Below are positions 7,226-60,421 of a stretch of 64,000 bases of DNA, in pieces. The position numbers and the translations under genes are program-made. The notes beneath the pieces are model-generated. The model searched no databases and was not told where the DNA came from. It saw only the letters and a program-made list of their open reading frames with translations. Positions within the stretch are counted from its first letter, which is position 1. Each line of letters begins with the position of its first letter. The stretch spans positions 1 to 64,000 of the forward strand of contig JANQQP010000032.1 in NCBI GenBank assembly GCA_028285005.1, read 5' to 3'. This DNA is from Dehalococcoidia bacterium. Lineage in GTDB: Bacteria > Chloroflexota > Dehalococcoidia > Lucifugimonadales > Lucifugimonadaceae.

Positions 7226-7288
7226 TCGACTGCGCCTCGTGCCAGCTTCGAGGCTGATCTAGACACAGAGAGATTGACGGAACCGAAT

Positions 7289-7385
7289 ACGCGGTGGGGA
7301 GCTCGGAATAGCCGGGCTGAGAGGGCGAATGACGCTTCGCCGACCCAAGAACCTGAACTGGGTAATTCCAGCGGAGGAACTGCGG
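7289..7385 (+). promoter_or_regulatory. TPP riboswitch (THI element)
   Basis: The conserved blocks of the thiamine pyrophosphate aptamer occur in order: GGGGAGCTC, GGGCTGAGAGGG, GACCCAAGAACCTGAACTGGGTAATTCCAGCGGAGGAACTG (given here in segments of the 7295-7381 region). Helix P1 can form between GCGGT (7291-7295) and ACTGC (7379-7383). A rho-independent terminator follows 20 nt downstream, so control is probably by transcription termination when TPP is bound. The regulated genes encode a pyrimidine-type ABC importer. Confidence 0.93.
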
Positions 7386-7403
7386 CATATCTGTACTTAA
7401 CAG

Positions 7404-25476: not shown

Positions 25477-25784
25477 CTATGAAACATATGAACGTAGTGA
25501 GCCGGATCGATTAACCAGAAGTGAGGGTCCTCTGAGTTTTCGGCAGAGGGTTAAGTATCAAGAACAGTTGTTAGCTGGTGCTAAAGGGACTGTGGCGGAT
25601 CGCGGACCGCGGCGGACGGAGTTCCCGGGAGCAGATGACTGCGCGGTAATCGCCAGCAGGATGAGTGAACGCTCGCACCCGTCAGCCAGGGGCAGTTTGA
25701 TCACTGTGGCATAATGGAATTAGCGGCGGGGCGAGGCTTACGTCAGCCGTTCAGCCGAGGGCAGTGGCCCCGGACTGCAAACGA

Positions 25785-25930
25785 TAATGAAAGGAGGTGT
25801 TTGCTAAGCATGAATAGTAGTACCGGAGGTGTCCTGCTGTAGGGCGCCCATTCTTAGCAGGGCACCTCAACAGGAGGGGTCACCCGGTTAGCGGCCACGA
25901 GGCTGTTGACCCGGTGGCCCCTCCTGCGTT
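25785..25930 (+). ncRNA. Candidate structured RNA with a sequestered start site
   Basis: The 555-bp gap between treT and the DUF2267 gene is non-coding apart from this element. Four nested or adjacent helices can be drawn: GAGGTG (25794-25799)/CACCTC (25863-25868); GCTAAG-C-ATG (25803-25812)/CAT-T-CTTAGC (25849-25858); a hairpin GGTGTCCT/AGGGCGCC (25828-25835/25841-25848); and a long terminal hairpin CAGGAGGGG..../....CCCCTCCTG (25871-25926) with an inner 7-bp helix. The first two helices cover a very strong AAGGAGGTG and an ATG. No matching known RNA family is recognised. Strand is inferred from the Shine-Dalgarno. Confidence 0.5.
25810..25842 (+). CDS. Possible 10-residue leader peptide
   Basis: ATG to TAG reading MNSSTGGVLL, preceded by AAGGAGGTG, a perfect complement to the 16S rRNA 3' end, at 10 nt. 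Both the Shine-Dalgarno and start codon can pair with downstream sequence in the RNA element described at 25785-25930. The next plus-strand gene starts over 800 bp away, so an ordinary attenuation role is not obvious. The peptide may be fortuitous. Confidence 0.3.
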   Translation: MNSSTGGVLL

Positions 25931-26031
25931 TAGGCGAGTTTTCGGACACGCGCTAAAGACTGGCAGCAGTGCCGGATTTAGAGGAAAGATTGGGAACCGG
26001 GGTGACTGGCGCCGGCGGGAAATCTGCCGGC

Positions 26032-60041: not shown

Positions 60042-60049
60042 ACGCTTCA

Positions 60050-60421
60050 GCAAGACGGACTGTAAGCCGGGTTCTGTGGACTGGCGTTAGCCAGCCGACG
60101 GCCATCCATCTGGGCACGCTGTCGCCAGCGCGCTCTAGCAGCCAACCCGGGAGCGAGCCGGGCCGCTCGTTGCTCCCCTATTTGGCCTTGCACCCAACGG
60201 GGTTTACCGTGCCCCGGACTGTTGCCAGCCGGGCGGTGCGCTCTTACCGCACCGGTTCGCCCTTACCTCGACAGTGTCGCGGCGGTGTACTTTCTGTTGC
60301 ACTGTCCGTCAGGTCGCCCTGCCCTGCCGTTAGCAGGCGTTGTGGCCCGGTGGTGCCCGGACTTTCCTCTCCCGCAGCGCCGGAATTTCGGCTCATGGAA
60401 GCGGCCGTCCGTCCATCTTGC
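60050..60421 (-). ncRNA. rnpB: RNase P RNA, bacterial type A
   Basis: Read on the minus strand, the P4 landmark GAGGAAAGTCCGGGC occurs near the 5' part and ACAGAACCCGGCTTACAG near the 3' end, the standard conserved blocks. Helix P1 forms between GCAAGATGGAC (60421-60411) and GTCCGTCTTGC (60060-60050), defining both ends (372 nt). It is the catalytic RNA that matures tRNA 5' ends; the protein partner RnpA is not in the window. Confidence 0.96.

Follow-up and report, generated by a model that had tools for sequence, protein, structure and literature searches.

A predicted autonomous small RNA gene of SAR202 bacteria with a conserved micro-ORF that ends in a covarying hairpin

Much of the uncultured SAR202 group (Dehalococcoidia), from ocean, sponge and other habitats, carries a previously uncatalogued element that we identify as a predicted autonomous small RNA gene, present in one copy per genome. 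It represents a new RNA family. Members of SAR202 live in the deep ocean, among other habitats, and have not been cultured. In the 64-kb stretch of DNA analyzed here (hereafter the window), the gene spans approximately positions 25710–25931 (+) and would give an RNA of ~150–215 nt. An initial annotation had drawn attention to 25785–25930, which is the 3′ two-thirds of the gene; the 5′ start of the element, a −10 box at 25710, lies upstream of the coordinates proposed there (Table 1). Both what that annotation described and how it read it proved partly right, for an element larger than it had reported. We lean, with modest confidence, towards an autonomous SAR202 small RNA whose fold is switched by ribosomes on its own micro-ORF, that is, an attenuator-like switch without an operon.

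Table 1. Features of the small RNA gene in the window.
Feature	Position	Strand	Support and remarks
−10 box CATAAT (TATAAT in relatives)	25710–25715	+	ATAAT invariant in the nine-way alignment, flanks non-conserved; also in relatives of other families
Transcript 5′ domain	25722–25788	+	Transcription start inferred at ~25722; hairpin at ~25723–25750 from the fold; the equivalent 5′ stem (helix 1) covaries in other families (6/6 pairs two-sided, 94% paired)
Shine-Dalgarno sequence GAAAGGAGGTGT	25789–25800	+	9 nt (25791–25799) complementary to the 16S rRNA 3′ end; no variation among the first nine family members; 107/107 sequences carry GGAGG or a near match
Micro-ORF MNSSTGGVLL-stop	25810–25842	+	Homologous 9–12-codon ORF in 107/107 sequences (74 distinct); starts and stops interchange
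Conserved hairpin, arm A (final codons of the ORF), GAGGTGTCCTGCT	25826–25838	+	A:C covaries, with two-sided compensatory changes
Loop element GGGCGCCC	25842–25849	+	Overlaps the last base of the stop codon; GGCGCC/GGTACC in the family, (UAG)GUGUUC in other families
Arm C AGCAGGGCACCTC	25856–25868	+	Pairs with A, alternatively with the Shine-Dalgarno sequence
Terminator	25871–25931	+	Long GC hairpin (25871–25926), then CGTTT; T-runs longer in relatives; helices 5 and 6 (window's family) and helix 4 (other families) covary

Distribution across genomes

We searched for the RNA among related genomes. A BLAST search of 60 related genomes with the intergenic gap as query matched all six congeners strongly (25704–25931 or parts of it, 85–94% identity); the remainder of the gap was unmatched, with conservation peaking over the RNA, and the aligned relatives share the −10 box, the Shine-Dalgarno sequence (SD), the A:C hairpin and the terminator. 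Covariance models found the RNA in 106 of the 250 genomes searched in the order, spanning 19 families, and in a single genome from a different order. This fraction (~40% of the order's searched genomes) is a lower bound; absence elsewhere is not proven, since scoring covered few candidates in each genome.

Models R1 and R2 match the window's family, and R3 the other families. With R1, 38 family genomes each gave a single strong match (E ~2e-10 or better), and there were weaker matches that later proved real in genus g11; R2 added the AT-rich, streamlined genus g7, in which the RNA was found in 9/9 genomes searched. The family total was 49 genomes at E ≤ 0.001, with 4 further g7 genomes when filters were off. 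Weak matches in other families were clear homologs on inspection; R3, built from ten other-family homologs, extended the distribution within the order by 18 families with 53 genomes, most at E < 1e-15, and reached one genome (G336, E 4e-7) from a different order within the class. In a sample of 400 genomes of the phylum, none was found outside the order, which is weak evidence of absence because scoring was limited to 7 candidates in each genome and the window's own family escapes R3.

None of the 4227 models of Rfam 15 exceeded its gathering score or covered the RNA in full, and a known Rfam family was therefore rejected; sub-threshold matches (ftsZ-DE, BjrC68, and suhB/mmgR) lay mostly over terminator hairpins. 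A repeat or mobile element was rejected since the RNA is single copy in the genome, and a tmRNA because ARAGORN found neither one nor a tRNA-like domain in the window and Rfam gave no match. Sponging of CsrA, as by CsrB/RsmZ-type RNAs, was excluded because CsrA is absent (PF02599 in none of 31 genomes, controls positive). In the collection of papers searched, we found none on this RNA or on SAR202 regulatory RNAs. Elsewhere in the window are a TPP riboswitch (7285–7396, +) and a bacterial RNase P RNA (60047–60420, −).

Conservation of the micro-ORF

As the initial annotation had described, GAAAGGAGGTG, an ATG at 25810 and ten codons running to a TAG at 25840–25842 are present inside the 555-bp gap. 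A point missed there is that the ten-codon frame is conserved in its own right as coding sequence. All 107 sequences compared (104 genomes, plus duplicates of three loci from another collection) have an SD, an NTG start and an ORF of 9–12 codons whose stop is placed at, or within, the loop of the hairpin. The start codon, found 6–12 nt after GGAGG (or a GGAGT/GGAGA variant), is TTG in 69, ATG in 36 and GTG in 2 sequences, and the stop is TAG in 81, TAA in 20 and TGA in 6 (n = 107). One locus, L053 (MSDSRTGGALL), fell outside the SD pattern of the script and fits by eye. Frame 0 was open in all 107 sequences, frame 1 in 70 and frame 2 in none; because frame 0 is open by construction, the interchange of codons at homologous places is the stronger argument. 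The predicted peptides include MSSTKRGVLR, MNSSTGGVLL and METNYKRGALI in the window's family and MDSSSRRCSG and MDSTRRGCLR in other families, and the motifs common to families are short only (S-S/T and R/K/G-R/G). The micro-ORF in the window uses AGT twice, which is the rarest serine codon of the window's long ORFs (6.9%).

The SD is complementary to the 16S rRNA 3′ end GGATCACCTCCTT of the same genome over AAGGAGGTG (25791–25799), of which this is the sole copy within the 64-kb window. The 3.29-Mb genome (G000) holds 11 copies, fewer than the 25 of the reversed control. The genome is SD-poor in general: an SD-like 5-mer stood upstream of 7 of the 37 long ORFs in the window.

Covariation of the helices

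Compensatory changes were assessed in separate alignments for the window's family and for the other families. In the latter (54 distinct sequences), 93.0% of pair cells were standard, compared with 77.2% in shuffles, and two-sided compensatory cells numbered 270, compared with 65.5. The covariation score was 0.573, compared with 0.256 in shuffles and ≤0.179 for slides of one to three columns; although the structure guided the fitting of this alignment, the controls lie far from these values. The corresponding count for the window's family was 176 vs. 60.6, and there the A:C hairpin and the terminator were supported by covariation. The A:C helix was paired in 95% of cases in the window's family and in 91% in other families. 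The covariance-model check that the initial annotation had suggested thus returned an RNA family with compensatory changes, although the helices so supported are A:C, the 5′ stem and the terminator and not the long-range ones that it had envisaged.

The architecture in other families consists of the covarying 5′ hairpin, the SD directly after it, a single-stranded start codon with the first codons, and then the ORF hairpin (≤16 bp, apical loop UAG(G/A)UGUUC), followed by a terminator with a T-run. The loop sequence is nearly invariant within groups.

Several smaller features were also observed. A 6-nt palindrome, GGCGCC, right after the micro-ORF stop is kept in the window's family even in AT-rich genomes, with GGTACC in G028, G036 and G007; loop–loop dimerization, or pairing with both hairpin arms, is a possible role for it. 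A C·C mismatch is retained in the terminator hairpin of the family (window 25877–25914; CACC[C]GG / CC[C]GGTG), and also at the same place in the AT-rich g7 despite other helix letters (TATC[C]GG / CC[C]GATA). Genus g11 (L137–L142) has an insertion of ~70–80 nt between the two hairpin arms.

Alternative folds of the window sequence

The 201-nt region folded at −101.1 kcal/mol, compared with −72.1 ± 4.6 kcal/mol for shuffled sequences (z = −6.3; 0/200 shuffles as good). Two nearly isoenergetic folds, within 0.5 kcal/mol, were predicted for the middle part: one pairs A with C and leaves the SD open (−32.6 kcal/mol), and the other, that of the initial annotation, pairs the SD and ATG region with C (−32.1 kcal/mol). 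The SD and start codon are single-stranded in most folds. The title claim of that annotation, a structure hiding the SD and start codon, is weakly supported: the two long-range helices that would do so belong to one of two near-equal folds and are not conserved beyond the genus. The SD/CACCTC helix paired in 98% of family cells but, being almost invariant, is uninformative for covariation; the inner helices paired in only about half of family cells (GCTAAG/CTTAGC, 54%; ATG/CAT, 48%). The long-range helices were accordingly rejected as a conserved structure, and we regard them as genus-level alternatives. The long GC-rich hairpin described alongside them was found again, as the terminator stem.

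Neighboring genes and autonomy

In the window's family, the RNA lies between a 2-hydroxyacid dehydrogenase gene and a NUDIX gene. The genus of the window has other genes next to the RNA, a trehalose-synthase-like one on one side and an antisense DUF2267 gene on the other, and its NUDIX gene is 728–1237 nt away, behind the antisense gene. Seven genera (g2, g3 (G018), g4, g7, g8, g10 and g12) have a same-strand NUDIX gene just downstream, with ~16–370 nt from the terminator to the first aligned NUDIX codon and no obvious SD in front of NUDIX. In g11, the RNA is away from NUDIX and upstream of a nucleotidyltransferase/HEPN-like gene pair (named by eye). In other families, the downstream genes differ, and the next one is convergent in 51 of 57 loci, as it likewise is in the window; the RNA was absent upstream of the NUDIX orthologs in these families and is located elsewhere in those genomes.

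Since the neighborhood varies from lineage to lineage and the gene that follows is mostly convergent, the RNA is generally not a leader, and this, together with the conserved −10 box and terminator, points on sequence evidence to its own transcription unit. The suggestion in the initial annotation of an independent small RNA that presents an SD is thus strongly supported by the conserved promoter and terminator, the changing neighbors, the covariation, and the spread over 19 families. The usual divergent neighbor in other families (L166–L219) is a small VOC/glyoxalase-like gene, while the downstream gene changes; a promoter region shared with this gene may matter.

Proposed mechanism and alternatives

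Comparison shows the RNA family, its helices and terminator, the conserved ORF and the independence from neighbors; in the reading that we favor, transcription, translation, switching and action in trans are what we infer. The RNA would be transcribed from its own promoter and ended by the intrinsic terminator, and ribosomes would load at the near-perfect SD and translate about ten codons. The last of these codons form the 5′ arm of the conserved 13–16-bp hairpin, with the stop codon positioned at or within the apical loop; translation would therefore have to open the hairpin. Once opened by the ribosome, the hairpin would release arm C, which bears the anti-SD-like CACCUC; without a ribosome, A:C would re-form. 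In the window's genus, C could pair with the SD instead and thereby close the ORF. Translation of the micro-ORF would in this way set the fold of the RNA, and probably its target pairing or lifetime too. The near-equal energies of the two folds agree with this scheme; against it, the SD:C alternative is so nearly invariant that covariation cannot speak for it, and its accompanying helices lack conservation.

Because the peptide is partly conserved, it could be the product rather than the fold, and the RNA would then be a minimal mRNA for 9–12 residues, with hairpins that merely protect and terminate the message. The peptide pattern recurring in MDSSSRRCSG, MSSTKRGVLR and MDSTRRGCLR, the kept frame, and the interchanging start and stop codons agree with this, but we consider it unlikely, given that only short motifs are common to the families and that A:C covaries over the codons more strongly than protection of a message would need. 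The interchange of starts and stops at homologous places, with the frame kept in 107/107 sequences, also makes it highly improbable that the ORF is incidental in a pure base-pairing small RNA whose arm C or apical loop binds mRNAs, even though CACCUC in arm C resembles the 16S anti-SD and the loop is near-invariant within groups.

A leader or riboswitch of NUDIX was first favored because this gene follows in most of the window's family, and was dropped as the link is missing in g11, in the window's genus and in other families. In the specific form of a ribosome-dependent transcription attenuator, we regard this explanation as very unlikely. It would account for the seven genera with a closely following NUDIX gene that lacks an obvious SD, where a cis role is possible, but not for the window's genus, with its intervening antisense gene, nor for g11 and all other families, which keep the RNA without NUDIX and mostly facing a convergent gene. 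Moreover, the terminator and the covarying helix upstream of it have no strand in common, and inspection by eye revealed no conserved antiterminator. Rather doubtful, but of wider reach, is a role as a general translation sensor, in which the SD, among the strongest in this SD-poor genome, would capture ribosomes on the ten-codon ORF and the state of the stop-codon hairpin would report ribosome availability or termination to targets in trans.

Relation to known RNAs

The nearest described analog, in design, is rnTrpL/peTrpL, likewise a small RNA that ends at a terminator and whose leader-peptide ORF is about as long. In Sinorhizobium meliloti, attenuation at trpE(G) gives rise to rnTrpL, which contains a Trp codon run and whose 5′ end starts with the ATG of trpL; both the RNA and the peTrpL peptide act in trans (PMC7298713). 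The SAR202 RNA, in contrast, is without an operon in most lineages and without an invariant codon run, and has a 5′ hairpin and a strong SD. Like Trp-leader-type attenuators, it has a short upstream ORF with an SD overlapping the putative switching hairpin. However, no run of regulated-amino-acid codons is common to all groups, and a same-strand regulated gene downstream is lacking in the window and in 51/57 other-family loci, although some members of the window's family have one; with neither this gene nor the codon run in place, the RNA falls outside the attenuator class. A:C and the terminator share no strand, and antiterminators were sought by eye only. The RNA also resembles dual-function small RNAs such as VcdRP of Vibrio cholerae in being an autonomous small RNA with a small ORF, whose translation is predicted from comparative evidence. 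VcdP has 29 residues (PMC8672173), whereas the SAR202 ORF encodes 9–12 and reaches its stop codon inside the apical loop of a hairpin that covaries.

Implications

A single-copy RNA in at least ~40% of the order's genomes searched, with its ORF and stop-codon hairpin under clear selection, suggests that attenuator-like RNAs can live as independent genes. The family gives concrete loci to seek in existing metatranscriptomes, together with a covariance model for doing so. If the sensor role were true, the RNA would define a new class, specific to SAR202, of autonomous small RNAs that sense ribosomes.
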